Source: Planctomycetes bacterium syqfu (GTDB lineage: Bacteria; Planctomycetota; Phycisphaerae; Phycisphaerales; Phycisphaeraceae). From it: 64,000 bases of DNA. Where the stretch lies: contig CP087563.1 in assembly GCA_020974905.1 (NCBI GenBank), positions 2,728,001 to 2,792,000 on the forward strand, read 5' to 3'. Shown one piece after another: positions 25,877-46,953 of the stretch. Under the pieces are notes generated by a model. That model saw only the letters and a list, made by a program, of their open reading frames with translations, searched no databases and had not been told where the DNA came from. A program made the position numbers and the translations under genes. Within the stretch, counting starts at the first letter, position 1, and each line of letters starts with the position of its first letter.

Positions 25877-28358
25877 GTGGTGTAGGCCAAGGAGTTGCAC
25901 CCTGACCCCAACCCCAAACCGGGCGTGCAAGTTTCCAAGCACCCGGCTTTCCCGATATTTCTTGACATTATTTTGCATAGGTCTTTTCCTTGTGACAAGA
26001 CAGACACAGGGTCTGCATGTTTTCCAGATAACTTGCCTGCACAAAGCTGGCAAAGCTTTCAACGGGTTTGATATGATCGGCCTGTGAGGTTGCTGCTGTG
26101 ATCGGCTTGCCGCATTGGCTGCATATCATGCCGTCACGTGCCAGGGCCTGATGCTTCAGGTCCATGCCGCCGGGTCTGTTCTTTTCGTGGATGTAACGAT
26201 CGCCGTCCACTTCAGAATCAGATTCGTAGTCGCCGTTGCCCGGTACATAAGGTTCGGGGCCACCTTGGTCCCATGCCATGCGTATGTCGCGGAATTTCGC
26301 GAGCGTGCATGTTGAGAACATTCCAATGTAGCTTCCGAATGTGTACCCGCGAAGGCACTTGGCAGTGGATATGTCCTGTTTGCGACATATCGTTTTGACG
26401 GCTATCCAGTAGGCATGATGGTCCAGCAAGGACGACACGACTGAATAGTTGTGGGCGATCTTGTAATAATGAGCCCATCCCCGTACAACTGCCGAGCCCC
26501 GGATCATGCGGACGGCAATCGACTCCTGTTGGGGTCGATGCCGAATCGCTTTCGCCAGGCTTCGCTTGGCGTTGGCCACTGCTTCCAGCGGAACCTTGAT
26601 CTTCGCAGCGTGGTGGCCACGTCTGACAACACCCATTTCCAAGCGGAAACTAAGAAATTCAAAACCCTCGCGGACATGCGTGATGTGCGTCTTTTCCTCC
26701 GAGAGTCGCAGGCCGCAGTTGACGACAAGGAACTCACGGATTTCCTCACGGAGATTCTCGGCATAACGCTTTGAAGCCCGCGTGATGAACACACACCAAT
26801 CATCGGCATAGCGGACAAACCGAAGGTTCGGCTCCCGGTTATACCATGCTCGCCGACTGGCCAGATTGTGTGAACCCTTTGCATGCAGGAACCAGTCCAG
26901 CTTGTTCAGGACCACGTTGGCCAGTAGCGGTGAGACGACACCGCCTTGAGGCACGCCTTTCTCAGTGGGATGGACGATACCCTCAATTTCCACGCCTGAT
27001 TTAAGGAACAGACGAATCAGATTGAGGAATTTGTTATCCATCACCTTTTCCCGCAAGGCTTGGAGTATTGCCTTGTGCGAGATCTCATCGAAACACGCCT
27101 TCACATCGCCTTCGATCACCCATGTGAACTGACGGTTCATCAGGTGTTTGCATCGAAAGATGGCATGATGCGTGCTTCTGTTGGGCCGAAACCCGTAGGA
27201 ATCGTCATGGAATTCGACTTCAAAGATTGGTTCGATTGCCATACGGACAGTCTCTTGCACAATCTTGTCCCGCAGGCATGGAATACCAAGCTTACGCGGT
27301 TTCCCGTTGGGCTTGATGATCACACTGCGCCGCAGGGGCTGAGGACGATAGGTTCCATGTTTCAATTCCAACCGAAGTGCTTCCAGTTCCTTGGTCAGTG
27401 TTCTTTCAAACACGGACACGGTGATACCGTCAACACCCGGTGCTTTGCCTCGGGAACGTGTCATCACGCGAGCACAGGCTTCTGCGATCCATTGCGGATG
27501 ATGCAGCAGGTCCATCAGGTTCCGCACTCGGCCATCGTACGAATTGACCGGAAACAGAGGTGATCCTGATTCCCTGTGTTGCTTGTGCATACGTGACTGT
27601 TCCCACAGTCTTCTCTGGACTTCTTTCACGTTCATCGGAAACCCTTCCAATTGTTAAACCTTTCCGTCGTCCAGAACGAAACATCCTGCCTCCCTTCGCC
27701 ATGTGGACGGCTTTCCCGTCCTCGGACTACTACGGAGGCTCCGCCACTTGGTCGCCTCATCGGTGTGGATTCAATCAATTCCATATGGATCGACCTATCC
27801 GTGTGAGCACCGTTTGCCGGACCGTCCGGCGTTCTACTCGACCAAGCTTCACTGGTTCCTTTGCTGACACAATTCGCTTTCGCGTAGGTTCCGACTCTCG
27901 GGGCACCCAACAGCGTTCCGCTGCTCCTCCAAACACCGTCAGATAGTTGACCACTCTGACGACTACGGAACTCCTGCGAGTTCGTCAGGACATTCGACTG
28001 GAACAATATCGTTTGTCCGTTTGGATCATTCCCTATTCTGGACATTACCCCAGACGGCTTCTGTGTTATCAGGAATGAGGCTCTCATTTTCCGAAGGTGC
28101 AAGTCAGTTTCCTAATTAAGTAACCATACGAAAGCACTACCTTGAGAGACTGCCACGGCTAAGAAGCATTGCCTGTGTCTCCCGTTGTCCGGGGAGCTCT
28201 TTTGCCGAACCGGCTCACACATTCCGGTCGACTTACCCCGTAGGTACGGTGGACGGCCAAACGTCCACGGTGTGCGATCACACATTGTCAAGCAAAGTAT
28301 CTCGTGCTGTTGATTGCTTGTTGCCAAGCACTCAAGCAGCGCGATACATCAGTCGCAC
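25877..28358 (-). mobile_element. Group II intron inserted in the tail tube gene
   Basis: About 2.48 kb. On the minus strand it begins GTGCGAC directly after GAT, the end of exon 1; GTGYG is the group II 5' consensus. Near its 3' end a domain V-like segment (about 25910-25955) has AAGCCGGGTG, GAAAC and CACGCCCGG, followed by a domain VI-like hairpin and an AC end. The encoded reverse transcriptase lies inside domain IV. The exact 3' border is set by in-frame joining and the AY end; it could be three bases off. Same orientation as the host gene, so self-splicing would restore the tail protein. Confidence 0.88.
25968..27635 (-). CDS. ltrA: Group II intron reverse transcriptase/maturase with HNH endonuclease
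   Basis: About 555 residues from ATG 27635 with GGAAGGG 5 nt upstream. Reverse transcriptase domains run in order: GKAPGVDGITV, RPQPLRRSVIIKPNGKPRKL, the SYGFRPNRSTHHA block, VPQGGVVSPLLANVVLNKLD and the active-site RYADDWCVF. Then come the maturase X domain (RGWAHYYKIAHNYSVVSSLL) and a C-terminal HNH with CSQCGKPI, ADHIKPV and LCLSCH. All catalytic residues are present, so the protein should be active in splicing and retrohoming. Confidence 0.95.
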   Translation of the reverse strand: MNVKEVQRRLWEQSRMHKQHRESGSPLFPVNSYDGRVRNLMDLLHHPQWIAEACARVMTRSRGKAPGVDGITVSVFERTLTKELEALRLELKHGTYRPQPLRRSVIIKPNGKPRKLGIPCLRDKIVQETVRMAIEPIFEVEFHDDSYGFRPNRSTHHAIFRCKHLMNRQFTWVIEGDVKACFDEISHKAILQALREKVMDNKFLNLIRLFLKSGVEIEGIVHPTEKGVPQGGVVSPLLANVVLNKLDWFLHAKGSHNLASRRAWYNREPNLRFVRYADDWCVFITRASKRYAENLREEIREFLVVNCGLRLSEEKTHITHVREGFEFLSFRLEMGVVRRGHHAAKIKVPLEAVANAKRSLAKAIRHRPQQESIAVRMIRGSAVVRGWAHYYKIAHNYSVVSSLLDHHAYWIAVKTICRKQDISTAKCLRGYTFGSYIGMFSTCTLAKFRDIRMAWDQGGPEPYVPGNGDYESDSEVDGDRYIHEKNRPGGMDLKHQALARDGMICSQCGKPITAATSQADHIKPVESFASFVQASYLENMQTLCLSCHKEKTYAK

Positions 28359-28562
28359 ATCCCACATGAGCGTGAACTCGACACTGCCATTCTTGAGCGT
28401 AGCGATGGTAGCACGCCAACCATTACTCGCTCTCGTCGTGACATCGGCCTCGTTGGTCTCGAGGTTAAGCGTGACATCCTTTGTGTTTGTCAGCTCACTT
28501 GTTGCGGTTGTGCCGGCCGCGCCGTAGTACAACTTGGCCTGCATCCCTAAACGGATGGACAT
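28359..28562 (-). CDS. Tail tube protein, 5' exon
   Basis: 68 codons, MSIRLGMQAKLYYGAAGTTA to VEFTLMWD. The frame continues for a few codons into the intron (VRLMYRAA) before a stop, so without splicing only a truncated protein would form. Placed between virion morphogenesis genes and the tail chaperones, the standard position of the major tail protein. With the 3' exon it reads LMWD/TDDEGFS across the junction. Confidence 0.8.
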
Positions 28563-34391: not shown

Positions 34392-37300
34392 TTAAAAACG
34401 GCGCTGTTGCATGTCGGAAAGCTTCATACGCGGACGCGATTGCACACTGCGTGACTCAACCCCGGGAAGTGAGACACCTTGAATCGACGCAGCTACCGCA
34501 CAACCGACGAGACAATCCAGCCAGTGATTGTCCGGACGCGTGGCACGAAGTTTCCACTCATCCACAGTACGACCTTGAGCCTGAGATTTGACGCGGTATT
34601 CAGCCGTCAGGTGATCGGCAAGCAAACGATGTGTTTTGACATCACGACCAAACAGGGACAGGCAGCCTGGATCACCCATGGATACTGACAGACGTGCATG
34701 AACAAACGTCTTCCAGTAATTGGTGTCGATCAAGGCATGGCGAACCTGACGCTTGCCCACCGTGTTGGGAATGCGCCAGTGCAGACCAACGCGGTCTCCC
34801 CGCTTACGGCGGTATTCACTGAAGGGAATACTTGATGCTCCGACATAACGTCCATGACTGGGCAATAGCAATCCTGCGTGTTGGCTTTGCCGACAGAATT
34901 GGTACACCACATCGGTACTCTGGCCCCAATTGGCATCAATCAAACAACGGTCGATGCGCATTTCCGCTCCATCGTCCCTGTGATACGTTGCCGCAAGTTT
35001 TTCGGCGGTGAGTATGTCCAGTCCCGCATAGATCTGGCCTTCAACCCCTGCGCCCGGTGCGGCACGGCTGATCGTGGATCGGATATCACGCAGTGTGTAA
35101 TAGGCGCGTTTCTGCTCGGGCCATGTGCCATAGTCGATGATGTAGCCGGTAAAATTCTCCTCCCAGCCGCAGAGCATCCAGAACAAAACCTTCTGCTGCA
35201 CATCGATGAACATCGTCAGGTGGTTGCATGCCAGCGGGATGATGGTCTGAGGGTGACCATTGGTTTTGGCAGCGATGGCGTCGGCGGTCAGCATCTCTTC
35301 GCCCACGGATTCGATGATCGGTTCGTTCTGGTATTCGGCAAAAAACGCTGCTTCATCACGCAAGCGAAGATTCATCGCATGCTGCAAGGCTGATAGTTCG
35401 TCTTCGTTGTACCGTTGCGGCCAGGCAACATTACTGCCTGCATCCATTGCTTCACGATTGCTTCGGTAAAACTCGGTAGCCTGCGAACCATCCCCATCGT
35501 TCCTCAAACTGTCAGCACGAATCTCAGCATATTTTGCCCAGAGCTTCTCCGCATTGGCATCGGGAAAAGAGTAGATCATCTTCGTCCGCTCCCCCTGCCA
35601 TTCCGGGTGTTTGTCCCGGTCGAGGATGTTGTCAGCCATATCCCCGGGCCGGATCACGGTGCAGGCCATGAGTCCCGCAATTTTCTTGCCGGGGCCAGCC
35701 ATGCCCAGCACGTCACCGGCCAGGATTGCTTCGCGTCGCTGACTTTGCGAGGGTGACCATGCGGACTCGGTGGTTTGCGGATCGTCGACCAACACCAACT
35801 GTGGACGCACAACCTGCCCATCGGCACGAGCATAGTTCTGGCCTCGAATATCGCTGCCCTTCATTCCGCTTGATGAAATAACAATGCCCGACGACAGGCT
35901 GCCTTCAATCACCGGCAACACCACACGATCTGATGACCAGTCGATGCGCGTGGGCTCACCTTTGTATTTTTGGCCTTTCTGCCGATTGGTAATTCGCTCA
36001 AGACAGCGAATGGGATACGTGACCTCCGGGAAATCCTCCTGCAATAACGGATTGGTTTCCAACCAGATCTTGATGTTCTCCAGCAGGTCACGGGCGCGTT
36101 CGGCACTGGCGGCAACCAGACAGATAAAGGGGGACGCACCGATCAGAGCCGCCCATAACACAGCCGTCTGGCATAAAACTGTGTTGTGCGTGGGGACCAT
36201 TTTGCGCCCGGCTAGGTAAAGATGCGATGGAGAATCCACCTGGATGCACCTGACCGGCACCGACTCGGTTGGCGTGATCGACACAATACGACGCGACGCC
36301 GACAACGGGCGTGTCTTGGGAACCGGACGTAACCGCTCCTGCTTACGCTTGAGCCGAAACACCTCGATATTTTTATGAACCGTAAAATGAAACCGGTGAT
36401 ATGGCCCCAAGCGTTTGCCGTTGAGCTGGACATATTTTTCACTGCGACCGTATTTGATACCCAAGGTACTGAGCAGTTCACCAAAGCCATCAGCAAGCTT
36501 CGGATATTTGATAATGATCTCACAAGCCCCCTTTTTACTGACATGGCCATCCGTATCCATCATGCCCTGTAATAAATCCAGACGCTGTTCATGCCCGGCG
36601 CGAAGGTACTTGGTAGGAATATGTTTATTCTGCAAAAGATTGAGTTTACGAAGCCTGCCCTGGAATGACGTTTTGTTGCGATAAGTGCGAGTCATCCATC
36701 CGGTGCAGGTATGACTCTTTTCATCCACCACCAAGTCACGCAGCATTTCACCTGACCAACGGATCTGGTCACAGATTTCCGGCGCATCCCACTGGGCCAG
36801 CGTCACTGAAGCCCTGCGGCAAGTGCCATCACCTAACCACACACCCAAGGCATATGGATCAATGAGCAGATTCTCATTGAACACCTGCAACGGCTTGGCA
36901 AGTGGAATGCGGTAACGCTTTTCGGATCGCCCACGTTTGTTGGGTAGGTCCACCCGATCTGCCATGTACTTGGTGGTAAGTGTCAGTGGATTTTTTCGAC
37001 TGTACCGATCATTCACCGTCCAGAGATGTTCGGCATCACAAACGATTTCTTCACCATCGCTGAACCGGACGCGGTAGCACGGATGATTATGCATCACCTC
37101 GGTGACATGGGTCACACGACACATTCGCCCCTGTTCATCGAATAAGGTGTCACCAACTTTGACATCACCCATGGTGGTCCACCCGCTGGCCGTGGCCAAC
37201 GGTGTGTCCAGTGCCAGGGCTTTACCTGATCCGCGCGGCATGGCCATGGCAAACAGTCCACCGGTGCGCACGGCCTTCTCAATTTTTGAAATGACCGTCC

Positions 37301-37718
37301 TGTGGTCTGCTGACCAGGGCAAGTAAAAAACCTCGGCAAAGTAGGTTTCGCAAAACTCTCTGAATGATGCAATGCATCGAGCCTTGCGATCCGGGTCAAC
37401 GACTGCCGGTATCTCCCCGATGTCCTGAGCCGAACGTACGGCCTCCGCATTGCGCTCGGCCTGACGTGCTTTCTGCTCTTCATAACTCAAAGGACCAGAC
37501 TTGGGTTTGGCATATTCCAATGTCAACCATGCGGCATATCGGAACAGATCCACCGTTTGCGGATTGGACGGATCACTGATGCTGTAGCCAGCTCGGTTGC
37601 GGTGGCGACGCAGTTGGAATTCCGTCAATGGTTCAGCATTGGGGATATCGATGGCGTTGACGATCCGCAACAGGTCGGCCGGTCGGAGTTGGCGTGGGTT
37701 AAATGACTTCTTACTCAT
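34392..37718 (-). CDS. Large terminase subunit interrupted by an intein
   Basis: 1108 residues, of which 346 are intein. After removal the terminase is 762 residues. Walker A spans the splice point: MPRGSGK at 160-166, then T513. Walker B is QLVLVDDPQT. The RNase H-like nuclease domain has TMFIDVQQKVLFW and CLIDANWGQ aspartates and RPDNHWLDC at the end. It packages DNA from concatemers into proheads and cuts it. It follows the small-subunit candidate with an 8-base overlap. Function depends on intein removal, since the P-loop is split. Confidence 0.93.
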   Translation of the reverse strand: MSKKSFNPRQLRPADLLRIVNAIDIPNAEPLTEFQLRRHRNRAGYSISDPSNPQTVDLFRYAAWLTLEYAKPKSGPLSYEEQKARQAERNAEAVRSAQDIGEIPAVVDPDRKARCIASFREFCETYFAEVFYLPWSADHRTVISKIEKAVRTGGLFAMAMPRGSGKALALDTPLATASGWTTMGDVKVGDTLFDEQGRMCRVTHVTEVMHNHPCYRVRFSDGEEIVCDAEHLWTVNDRYSRKNPLTLTTKYMADRVDLPNKRGRSEKRYRIPLAKPLQVFNENLLIDPYALGVWLGDGTCRRASVTLAQWDAPEICDQIRWSGEMLRDLVVDEKSHTCTGWMTRTYRNKTSFQGRLRKLNLLQNKHIPTKYLRAGHEQRLDLLQGMMDTDGHVSKKGACEIIIKYPKLADGFGELLSTLGIKYGRSEKYVQLNGKRLGPYHRFHFTVHKNIEVFRLKRKQERLRPVPKTRPLSASRRIVSITPTESVPVRCIQVDSPSHLYLAGRKMVPTHNTVLCQTAVLWAALIGASPFICLVAASAERARDLLENIKIWLETNPLLQEDFPEVTYPIRCLERITNRQKGQKYKGEPTRIDWSSDRVVLPVIEGSLSSGIVISSSGMKGSDIRGQNYARADGQVVRPQLVLVDDPQTTESAWSPSQSQRREAILAGDVLGMAGPGKKIAGLMACTVIRPGDMADNILDRDKHPEWQGERTKMIYSFPDANAEKLWAKYAEIRADSLRNDGDGSQATEFYRSNREAMDAGSNVAWPQRYNEDELSALQHAMNLRLRDEAAFFAEYQNEPIIESVGEEMLTADAIAAKTNGHPQTIIPLACNHLTMFIDVQQKVLFWMLCGWEENFTGYIIDYGTWPEQKRAYYTLRDIRSTISRAAPGAGVEGQIYAGLDILTAEKLAATYHRDDGAEMRIDRCLIDANWGQSTDVVYQFCRQSQHAGLLLPSHGRYVGASSIPFSEYRRKRGDRVGLHWRIPNTVGKRQVRHALIDTNYWKTFVHARLSVSMGDPGCLSLFGRDVKTHRLLADHLTAEYRVKSQAQGRTVDEWKLRATRPDNHWLDCLVGCAVAASIQGVSLPGVESRSVQSRPRMKLSDMQQRRF
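36183..37220 (-). mobile_element. Class 3-type LAGLIDADG intein in the terminase P-loop
   Basis: 346 residues (167-512 of the precursor). It begins ALALDTPLATASGWTTMGDV, with Ala instead of the usual Cys/Ser, and ends MVPTHN before Thr. The W-C-T triad of class 3 inteins is present: Trp233 in block B (EHLWTVND), Cys491 in block F (RCIQVDSPSHLYL), and Thr513 as the first downstream residue. The homing endonuclease has two LAGLIDADG-type motifs, LGVWLGDGT and LLQGMMDTDGH. In class 3 inteins the block F Cys takes the first nucleophile role, so the Ala1 is not a defect. Confidence 0.87.
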
Positions 37719-44184: not shown

Positions 44185-46953
44185 TTAAAAAGGAATGTCA
44201 TCGTCATCGGGCCAGACATAATCGGGCTCGTCGGGGGTACTGTTAGTGGCTACTGCCGTGGGAATTGATCCCAATTCGTAATTGATAATGCGGTCGAATT
44301 TTTCACCGGTGACTGAGCGGACGGTGATGGACAGTGGTTGGGCCAACGCCCCGGCTTCAGCTAACTCAACCGCCTGTTCTACGGTGTCAGGCATGGGTTC
44401 ATTGGTTCGAGCCTGCCACCATGTGTATGCTTTCTGCCAGGCGTAGCTGCCCTTAGGATGTGCCACGCATATCCATTCGCTGTGGTATTCATTGAATCCA
44501 CATCGGTAATCGACACGCAGTGTCTTGGGATGTTCGGGTGGTGCGCCGCGTTTGGTGTGGATGCTGTAATACACCTCACCCACGTCGTAATCCGTCTCAG
44601 TTACTTCACCGGACAACACACCTGCCGTCGAAGCACTGCCATCATGTTTATCCCGCTCAGGTGGCGGGAATTCATGGCCGCAGTCCGGGCACACGCTGTA
44701 CGACGCATGAATCAATGCCTGGCAGTTGGGACATTCCTTGGCCGGTGCTTCTGAACTACTTTTCCGATCCGACTTATCCTTGATCTGAAGCGCATCCACC
44801 GGGCCATGTCGTAAAATATTGCCACCAAAATCCAGCACCAGGCAGTTGGTTTTGGCCGGATGCAGTCGGAATCCCCGACCCAGCATTTGATAGTAAAGTC
44901 CCGGTGAATTGGTTGGACGCAGCAGCGCGACACAATCAATGTTTGGTGCATCGAAACCCGTCGTCAGCACATTGACGTTGACCAGGTATTTGAGATCACC
45001 ATCCTTGAACCGGCGCAGAACGTCATCACGGAAGATGCCCGAACTATCGCCGCAGACGAACCCACATTCGTGGCCCATGTCACCCAAAACGCGCTGCACA
45101 TGTTGGGCATGTTGCACGCTTGCAGCAAAGACCAACACGGAATGACGATCTTTTGTCTGCTCGACAATCTCCCGACAGGCTGAATGAACGAGACCATCGT
45201 CATCCATCAAGGCTTCAACTTCACCAGCAATAAACTCACCGCCTCTAATATGTAGATTAGAGGTATCTGCCTTGCGTCGTCCTGCTTTGGTTTTGAGTGG
45301 GCACAGGTAGCCTTGAGCAATGAGTTCCTTGACACCCACTTCATAGCAAACGTGGTTGAGTAGATGTTCCGGAGCTGGGCCACAGATGGTGCCACTGGTC
45401 ATGCGATATGGAGTCGCCGTCAAACCGATGAGTCTGACGTTGGGATTAACGAGCTTCGCCTCGTTGAGAAACTGCTGGTACATCCCCTCACCGTTGGGTG
45501 GGAGCATGTGGCATTCATCCACAAGGATGAGATCAAAACGATCCAATTCCGCTGCTTTGCGATAGACTGATTGAATGCCAGCCACGATGATGTCATGCTC
45601 CGTATCCCGACTCTTGAGCCCTGCTGAATAACAGCCGATCCGATACCACAGATCGGGCGCCATCGCGTGCAACTTGTCAACGGCCTGCTCGATCAATTCC
45701 TTGACGTGGGCCAGAATCAACACGCGGCCATTCCAATTTTTGACAGCATCGGAACATATCTTTGAAATCACCGGCGTCTTACCACTATTGTGATGAACCA
45801 TGAAATGGCCATCGACATAGAGATGATCACCATCCAGTGTGAAACCATAGAACTGATCACGTCCGATCGATTCGACCTTGAATCCCGTCCGCAGAACGTC
45901 TTTCTTCTGCATTCGGCGTTGTGGTTGTCGACGTGCCAAACGACAAGGCACATCCTGAAAATCACCCCAGATTGATAAACGGAAGAACCAACCACCTACT
46001 CCGGTCTGACATGAACAGTATTTCTGCGTGCAATGTGCTGCAAACCCCAAGCTTCGGACAAGGAACATCAGGTCGGTTGCCAATTCCCTGGATTGAGTCA
46101 CATAATCGCAACCGCTCTTGGTGCTGCTCCCATCACTATCCATCAGGCCCGCCAGTAACTGCAGGCGTTCATGTCGTGTAGCAGTCAGATAGGCATGTGG
46201 GATAAATTTTTCACCTGAATGTTTACCCATTAACCCCAACGCACTGATTGCTTCGGCAAAGATGTTGGCACGCCCAGTGTCTTTGACGATTCGATAGGTC
46301 GGGCATTTATCCCCCGACTGCTTGACGGTGACGCCGCAATTGATGCTATGGGCATAATCGATCCATGCATCTGCGATTTCGCTGTCTGCCGTGGTCAGAT
46401 TGATGGTCTCATCCACAAACGAACCATCGCCAAGCAGTAGGCCCAGGATGTATGGTGGAATGGGCAACAACGGACGATGTGAAAACTCCACCGGCACATG
46501 ACGAAGTTTGCGGAGATGCCGCCAGTACCTGGATTGCTCCAGGTACTGGCGCACCGTGACATTGTCGATTTCACCACCACGCCGGTAGCATGCAAAGTCA
46601 CGCTTGCCTTCGTTGGTACAAACCAATGAAAGGACGTGATCGCTGTTGACGATGAAAGGTTCACCTTTGTGTGGTGTGATTCGGTACATCTCATCTTCAC
46701 CACGACACAATGCTTCAACACGCCGTGGCTGGCTATCCGGCCCCATAAGCCTGTCGCCGACCACTACGTCTTCAACGGGTTTGACCATACCGTCGAACAT
46801 CAGGATGGGATGTCCCTTGGCATGACAGCCAGTTGGCAGCACGAGACAAGGATTGTCATCTCTTGTCCGCAGATGCTCATACACCGCATCCACCGCCTCA
46901 ACCTGATATGGGCGCAGGGTGATCACAGGTTGTTGAGCACAAGCCTGTATCAA
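44185..46953 (-). CDS. Superfamily 2 DEAD-like helicase interrupted by an intein
   Basis: 922 residues with a 347-residue intein. The extein helicase of 575 residues has motif Q-like ITLRPYQVEAVDAVYEHL, Walker A PTG|SGKTP across the splice point, Walker B ILVDECHMLPP, motif III-like LIGLTATPYRM, and motif VI LYYQMLGRGFRLH. A zinc ribbon CPNC...CPDC follows, and a C-terminal domain with WPDDDDIPF. Replicative or recombination-type helicase of the phage. Overlaps the ParB-like gene by four bases. Confidence 0.92.
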   Translation of the reverse strand: MIQACAQQPVITLRPYQVEAVDAVYEHLRTRDDNPCLVLPTGCHAKGHPILMFDGMVKPVEDVVVGDRLMGPDSQPRRVEALCRGEDEMYRITPHKGEPFIVNSDHVLSLVCTNEGKRDFACYRRGGEIDNVTVRQYLEQSRYWRHLRKLRHVPVEFSHRPLLPIPPYILGLLLGDGSFVDETINLTTADSEIADAWIDYAHSINCGVTVKQSGDKCPTYRIVKDTGRANIFAEAISALGLMGKHSGEKFIPHAYLTATRHERLQLLAGLMDSDGSSTKSGCDYVTQSRELATDLMFLVRSLGFAAHCTQKYCSCQTGVGGWFFRLSIWGDFQDVPCRLARRQPQRRMQKKDVLRTGFKVESIGRDQFYGFTLDGDHLYVDGHFMVHHNSGKTPVISKICSDAVKNWNGRVLILAHVKELIEQAVDKLHAMAPDLWYRIGCYSAGLKSRDTEHDIIVAGIQSVYRKAAELDRFDLILVDECHMLPPNGEGMYQQFLNEAKLVNPNVRLIGLTATPYRMTSGTICGPAPEHLLNHVCYEVGVKELIAQGYLCPLKTKAGRRKADTSNLHIRGGEFIAGEVEALMDDDGLVHSACREIVEQTKDRHSVLVFAASVQHAQHVQRVLGDMGHECGFVCGDSSGIFRDDVLRRFKDGDLKYLVNVNVLTTGFDAPNIDCVALLRPTNSPGLYYQMLGRGFRLHPAKTNCLVLDFGGNILRHGPVDALQIKDKSDRKSSSEAPAKECPNCQALIHASYSVCPDCGHEFPPPERDKHDGSASTAGVLSGEVTETDYDVGEVYYSIHTKRGAPPEHPKTLRVDYRCGFNEYHSEWICVAHPKGSYAWQKAYTWWQARTNEPMPDTVEQAVELAEAGALAQPLSITVRSVTGEKFDRIINYELGSIPTAVATNSTPDEPDYVWPDDDDIPF
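45787..46827 (-). mobile_element. Class 1 LAGLIDADG intein in the helicase P-loop
   Basis: 347 residues (43-389). It begins C43 (CHAKGHPILMFDGMVKPVED) and ends MVHHN389 before Ser390, the canonical Cys1, His-Asn, Ser+1 arrangement. The endonuclease motifs are ILGLLLGDGSF and LLAGLMDSDGS. It splits LPTG from SGKT, the same P-loop position as the terminase intein though the two inteins share little beyond family motifs. Confidence 0.92.

Follow-up and report, generated by a model that had tools for sequence, protein, structure and literature searches.

What is the insert that splits the Walker A loop of a prophage terminase in the window (the whole stretch of 64,000 nucleotides analysed here), and how did it come to be there? 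A sequence-only reading had taken it for a class 3 intein with an apparently intact LAGLIDADG endonuclease, lying in a planctomycete-type prophage. The comparisons of sequence and predicted structure described below make it very probable that this phage terminase large subunit houses, within its Walker A loop, a class 3 intein whose LAGLIDADG homing endonuclease is complete.

Terminase gene, insertion site and prophage

The open reading frame at 34392-37718 matches both the Pfam family GpA_nuclease (PF20454, E 1.3e-25) and the PHROG terminase large subunit (E 2.4e-74). The insert comprises precursor residues 167-512, between Lys166 and Thr513. It begins with Ala right behind GSGK, and its PTHN end abuts TVLCQT. 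Without the insert the terminase reads GSGKT, a complete Walker A motif. The originally proposed insertion site is the right one; on the minus strand, the limits 36183-37220 are correct to the codon. In a sequence search of the PDB, class 3 DnaB inteins rank first (6rix, E 3.7e-31; 6bs8, E 5.9e-31). Since, in addition, insert-free homologues join GSGK directly to T, the insert is not a product of chance. Coordinates of all features are collected in Table 1.

Table 1. Features of the terminase locus and of other mobile elements in the same prophage
Feature	Position	Strand	Basis or remark
Terminase large subunit precursor, lambda GpA-type nuclease domain	34392..37718	-	1108 aa; Pfam and PHROG matches
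Walker A GSGK, end of N-extein	37221..37232	-	empty alleles read GSGK-T
Putative class 3 intein, 346 aa, GSGK/T junction	36183..37220	-	PDB matches, empty alleles, AlphaFold model
Intein Ala1, no class 1 nucleophile	37218..37220	-	sequence
Trp B:12, W233 (intein W67), triad member 1	37020..37022	-	43/43 aligned full-length rows, 39 distinct
LAGLIDADG homing endonuclease domain (approximate limits)	36306..36866	-	Pfam LAGLIDADG_3 PF14528, E 1e-5; PI-SceI-like fold, Z 28.0
LAGLIDADG motif 1, ALGVWLGDG	36825..36851	-	Asp 41/43, Asn 2/43
Endonuclease Lys, intein K199	36624..36626	-	43/43
LAGLIDADG motif 2, LLQGMMDTDG	36546..36575	-	Asp 43/43
Cys F:4, C491 (intein C325), predicted initiating nucleophile	36246..36248	-	43/43 rows
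Thr G:5, T510 (intein T344), in PTHN, triad member 3	36189..36191	-	43/43 rows
Penultimate His and terminal Asn (H345, N346)	36183..36188	-	His 42/43 (one X), Asn 43/43
Thr+1, T513, predicted acceptor nucleophile and mature Walker A Thr	36180..36182	-	sequence
Second intein, class 1 (Cys1, HHN, Ser+1), 347 aa, LAGLIDADG	45787-46827	-	in helicase ORF 44185-46953
Group II intron	about 25877-28374	-	Rfam Intron_gpII 25877-25951, 50.4 bits
Reverse transcriptase with HNH domain	25971-27650	-	within group II intron region

By its match to sister prophages the element spans about 17-51 kb of the window, and a PHROGs scan of ten of its proteins returned an integrase, a tape measure protein, a head protein/protease, a portal, a ParB-methyltransferase, a primase and a Sak4-like protein. 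Its description as a planctomycete-type prophage is supported by the planctomycete titles on 74 of the 80 cellular terminase relatives (the best 80 of 250), and from these relatives the host, too, is probably a planctomycete. The same prophage holds two other mobile elements. One, a class 1 intein, interrupts the Walker A loop of a ResIII/DEAD helicase; this site is occupied in one of 12 chromosomal copies, and the flanks adjoin in the other 11 (one of them broken). The group II intron is present in sister prophage B and absent from A2 and C, the three sisters compared. The window prophage thus unites three such elements, two inteins of different class (3 and 1) and a group II intron.

Class 3 signature, fold and endonuclease

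Class 3 inteins, as described in the available parts of PMC3196547 and PMC5050341, have no nucleophile at residue 1 and carry Trp at B:12, Cys at F:4 and Thr at G:5. Residue 1 of the window intein is neither Cys nor Ser, and the original argument that Ala1 disables the class 1 route therefore stands. The triad had been given as Trp233, Cys491 and Thr513. The first two are correct, but Thr513 is the first C-extein residue (+1), and the triad Thr is T510. His B:10 (H65) is likewise present in 43/43 rows of our alignment, and H345, N346 and T513 complete the class 3 set. Among the eight Cys residues of the intein, C325 is the sole invariant one, the other seven varying in the 43-row alignment. 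Because these full-length rows were gathered by similarity to the window intein, the count of WCT triads is descriptive rather than an independent test. The motif comparison left out 12 of 49 candidate loci (L029, L030, L031, L041, L053, L054 and L056-L061), which were partial, distant or, for L029, on the same contig as L146. Class 2 inteins, according to the available part of PMC3196547, also have no residue-1 nucleophile, are otherwise class 1-like in their motifs and are known in KlbA. Absence of the WCT triad would mark that class; here the triad is present, and the host gene is a terminase.

On the insert, LAGLIDADG_3 was the only Pfam model above its cut-off, and neither the Hint models of Pfam nor the intein models of NCBIfam reached theirs. 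The class 3 assignment therefore rests on the PDB matches, the signature and a tree. An AlphaFold model of the intein, built with a 29-row alignment, has a mean pLDDT of 92.3 and a pTM of 0.91, and the predicted model has the Hint fold. With this model Foldseek ranks PI-SceI first (E 3.4e-17); among matches to the splicing domain only, the class 3 DnaB inteins 6bs8, 6riy and 6rix are best. VIA-align superposes the model on class 3 6riy with Z 21.6 (1.5 A over 130 residues, 52% identity) and on the class 1 intein gp41-1 (6qaz) with Z 18.4 and 25% identity, while a more distant class 3 intein of solved structure, AceL NrdHF (6zgq), scores below the latter (Z 16.1, 12% identity). For the whole model against PI-SceI (1jva_B), 336 residues align with Z 28.0 and 16% identity. 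Alignment to known class 3 inteins had been suggested as a check on the initial assignment, and the structural alignment agrees with it, the splicing domain being 51-53% identical to mycobacterial DnaB inteins. In the tree, 30 WCT inteins, including TerL1-e of Gaia (L210), split from four class 1 phage inteins with 100/100 support, in a sample of 30 of the 42 distinct WCT rows and a small class 1 set (n=4). One of these four comes from the same window; it has Cys1, Leu B:12, Gly F:4 and His G:5. Full signature, matches of sequence and predicted structure to class 3 DnaB inteins and grouping with WCT inteins thus all bear out the class 3 call.

Ala at residue 1 blocks the class 1 route, and it might accordingly be argued that the insert began as a class 1 (or class 2) intein, has since lost the nucleophile at residue 1 and today either only cleaves or splices through direct attack by Thr+1. 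We regard this as very improbable in view of the full WCT triad, the splicing-domain identity to class 3 DnaB inteins just given and the tree, in which it joins the WCT inteins and not the four of class 1. Moreover, Ala1 and the triad are common to all nine complete alleles at the GSGK/T site, so that no recent loss of the nucleophile is involved. Two side observations concern the signature in other genes and phages. In the terminase large subunit of Acidovorax phage ACF1 (L212), an intein has Cys at aligned position 1 together with the full WCT triad and, judging by these residues, could initiate by either. Three WCT inteins (L062, L063 and L064, in genomes G056 and G048 of the host's order) lie in other ORFs of 641-1040 aa and are 28-38% identical to the window intein.

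For a class 3 intein at this site, splicing, a branched intermediate, cleavage specificity and homing are what we infer, and the proposed mechanism draws on the class 3 chemistry described in the available parts of PMC7664689 and PMC3196547. The block F Cys325 (C491), helped by His65, Trp67 and Thr344, would attack the Lys166-Ala1 peptide bond directly, and the N-extein would move from Cys325 to Thr+1 (T513). Cyclisation of Asn346 would then free the intein and restore GSGKT and the ATPase, with a predicted length of the mature terminase of 762 aa. Because the P-loop is split, the unspliced precursor should be an inactive packaging motor. At the DNA level, terminase genes lacking the intein would be cut by the endonuclease at this codon junction, and their repair would copy the intein into them.

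The earlier view of the endonuclease as apparently intact is upheld: both motifs are complete, and when the window copy (W) is compared with its sister A2, the domain shows dN 0.027 and dS 0.433, a ratio of 0.06. For the same pair dN/dS is 0.03 in each extein and 0.05 in the splicing domain. By motif and dN/dS the endonuclease is therefore intact-looking. K199 may, by comparison with PI-SceI, have a catalytic role; Lys293 of the intein is kept in 41/43 rows. These values also bear on whether the intein is dead and the prophage decaying, with neither terminase nor endonuclease working. Two of the 12 sister terminases are broken, and on a viral contig a truncated terminase carries a shortened intein (L031). 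Nevertheless, with the 1108-aa frame open, the low dN/dS ratios in exteins, splicing domain and endonuclease, and every catalytic position examined retained, we consider decay highly unlikely, and an intein with an intact-looking endonuclease remains the preferred reading.

Sister prophages and the history of the intein

The host genome is a single 7.38-Mb contig (95.8% complete), and its chromosome contains 12 related prophages, that of the window included; the empty and shortened alleles of the sisters lay beyond the reach of the original reading, made from one window. The portal gene has 12 close copies (90-100% identity) and two further matches at 23-24%; the other eleven portal proteins are 90-92% identical to that of the window, a heavy stacking of one phage family. 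Of the terminase, 10 close copies are complete (84-100%) and two are broken; a distant relative, at 39%, is also present. The intein site of the 12 prophages holds a full intein in two, a mini-intein in two and nothing in eight. W and A2 have 346-aa inteins that are 95% identical, and B and C have 159-aa inteins that retain Ala1 and the triad and are without the endonuclease domain, which falls in a blastn gap at 36289-36932. Six empty genes are intact and read GSGK/T (C1:3075853, 3347749, 5707361, 2930208, 3134192 and 1073628), the closest to the window copy being C1:3075853-3077640; in the two broken ones the halves adjoin without an insert. With empty, endonuclease-bearing and endonuclease-less copies side by side, all three allele types of a homing cycle are present in one chromosome. 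With the intein left aside, seven of the 10 intact terminases share at least 90% identity with one another, and these seven represent all three allele types.

Since empty alleles persist beside two endonuclease-bearing ones, homing is not going to completion in this host. The endonuclease may be unexpressed in lysogens, may act off-target or may have lost its activity. The terminase presumably belongs to the late genes and is then silent in lysogens; the intact empty alleles and the two broken ones differ from the window copy at 4 to 10 of the 36 nt around the site. A rule that a lysogen must be fully occupied, on the grounds that an endonuclease would destroy its empty sisters, was rejected, as eight of the 12 sister terminases are empty. 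The bin of L094 is a second such case, for it also holds the empty terminases L088 and L089.

Outside the host chromosome the intein is sparse. We fetched 143 terminase loci, some of them duplicate records: 80 cellular ones (the best 80 of 250 relatives, so that more distant alleles fall outside the count) and 63 on viral contigs. Three (L097, L145 and L201) were unreadable at the site; of the other 140, 135 are empty and five (L082, L091, L094, L146 and L173) are occupied, by inserts of 345-347 aa or, in L146, of 159 aa. In three other genomes of the host genus the intein was not found; two of them have the terminase. A draw of 392 genomes of the phylum gave six that match the intein, the host among them; the closest match outside the host, at 73%, is probably the same locus as L094. 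At E 1e-5 the intein matches 749 of 50,697 records of named phages, with the terminase of Rhodobacter phage RcKickapoo top-ranked at 40.8%, and 39 of 72,556 plasmid records, the top-ranked of them at 40.2%. In the shortened intein of the truncated terminase L031 (4001-4534) a different internal stretch of the endonuclease is deleted, so that, going by that sequence, the endonuclease was lost there independently. The same viral contig also carries L183, an empty terminase that looks intact.

The nine complete inserts at the site form one clade (100/97) in an intein tree from which four of 46 rows were dropped as identical copies. In the terminase tree the occupied alleles are scattered, requiring six gains or losses, at least four of them forced by well-supported branches. 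This was a quick tree with SH-aLRT support only, built from 86 of the 143 loci plus four occupied own copies, with six identical rows dropped to leave 84. A single intein clade scattered over the terminase tree is what a homing element would be expected to show.

Synonymous divergence gives a second view of this history. At 4-fold sites W and A2 differ by 27% in the intein vs 51% in the extein (p 1.1e-6), and in the four pairs of W or A2 with B or C the intein differs by 27-32% and the extein by 46-53% (p 0.0018-0.0063). The internal control pair, B-C, shows 28% in the intein vs 31% in the extein (p 0.77). Given the lower divergence of the intein, it looks younger than the split of most sister terminase lineages. 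In an unrooted extein tree of the ten intact copies, W groups with an empty allele, L233 (99.4/98), and B and C stand beside two empty alleles (92.1/89). The trees are weakened by the fact that phage genes recombine.

Could the intein instead have been present in the common ancestor of these terminases and been lost repeatedly, with homing playing no role in where it is now found? An intein could be removed exactly if its gene recombined with an empty allele. Within the host, too, the intein tree does not contradict the extein tree, since among the closest alleles it resolves only B, C and L146 as a group and leaves W and A2 without resolved placement. Nonetheless, the intein is less diverged than the extein at 4-fold sites in five of six pairs, with the B-C control about equal, and in the extein tree W falls together with an empty allele; we therefore judge ancestry followed by loss to be unlikely. 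Homing by the endonuclease is, on these sequence comparisons, the likely source of the distribution. A recent transfer between W and A2 within the chromosome was rejected as the simple reading, as their inteins differ at 27% of 4-fold sites; the spread of the intein is older and probably took place in the phage population. Nucleotide identity between W and A2 is somewhat raised over about 150 codons downstream of the intein, but no clear co-conversion tract is seen in the 4-fold differences (22/57 in the first 120 codons vs 30/57 in the next 120).

A more far-reaching possibility is that the sister prophages are a working system of intein alleles. An induced endonuclease would attack empty sisters or incoming relatives, mini-inteins would be immune survivors, and intact empty terminases would make up in trans for splicing that is slow or fails. 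Its basis is the interference between co-infecting phages that, according to the available part of PMC11620839, is documented for an intron endonuclease; we hold the idea to be a long shot. If true, endonuclease attack would convert or cripple empty terminase genes, the mini-inteins of B and C would be survivors that shed the endonuclease, and the chromosome would be a natural setting for an idea of Tori and Perler. As given in the available part of PMC3196547, they proposed that class 3 inteins could persist in spite of splicing badly, because the extein function is provided by a second phage present in the cell.

Comparison with known systems

For planctomycete phage inteins nothing was found in the titles and abstract openings searched, and for inteins in polylysogens there was no match in the journals searched; most subscription journals lie outside this search. 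The occurrence of empty, full and endonuclease-less alleles among the sister prophages of one chromosome is, to our knowledge, unusual. We consider this setting more useful than the intein alone: it offers matched natural alleles for the study of homing, endonuclease loss and the cost or benefit of an intein, and it bears on the survival of poorly splicing phage inteins where other copies supply the function.

Two kinds of solved intein resemble parts of the window intein. Mycobacterial DnaB inteins (6bs8/6own, 6rix and 6riy) share with it Ala1, the WCT triad and the THN end; they differ in being only 139-146 aa long, too short for an endonuclease, and in residing in a replicative helicase. 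PI-SceI, the VMA1 intein, has the same combination of a Hint domain with a two-motif LAGLIDADG endonuclease, but is a class 1 intein of eukaryotic origin. Among the top-ranked of the 749 phage records, the terminase inteins of RcKickapoo and of Microcystis phage Mwe-JY05 (40.8% and 39.8% identical to the window intein) have, like it, the WCT triad and both endonuclease motifs. In the RcKickapoo intein, unlike that of the window, Arg aligns with position 1; the annotation of the Mwe-JY05 gene reads hypothetical protein and no more.

The closest precedents are mycobacteriophage inteins. As reported in the available part of PMC5050341, class 3 phage terminase inteins are already known, with tested splicing and one tested endonuclease: the TerL inteins TerL1-c (Bethlehem) and TerL1-e (Gaia) both spliced, and TerL1-c of Bethlehem cut an inteinless allele. 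Like the window intein, both are class 3 WCT inteins located in a terminase large subunit, within its ATPase domain. The Gaia intein, with the same triad, is 37.6% identical to it in a whole-length alignment. According to the same source, TerL1-c lies in a poorly conserved helix and TerL1-e in Walker B, both in terminase_1 proteins, whereas the window intein separates Lys from Thr in Walker A, and its terminase has a nuclease domain of GpA type. The Walker A inteins described there are TerL1-a and TerL1-b, of which TerL1-a shares the Lys/Thr position (PMC5050341). The window locus would add planctomycete prophages to the known range of class 3 terminase inteins, and the GSGK/T junction of a terminase with a GpA-type nuclease domain to their insertion sites.
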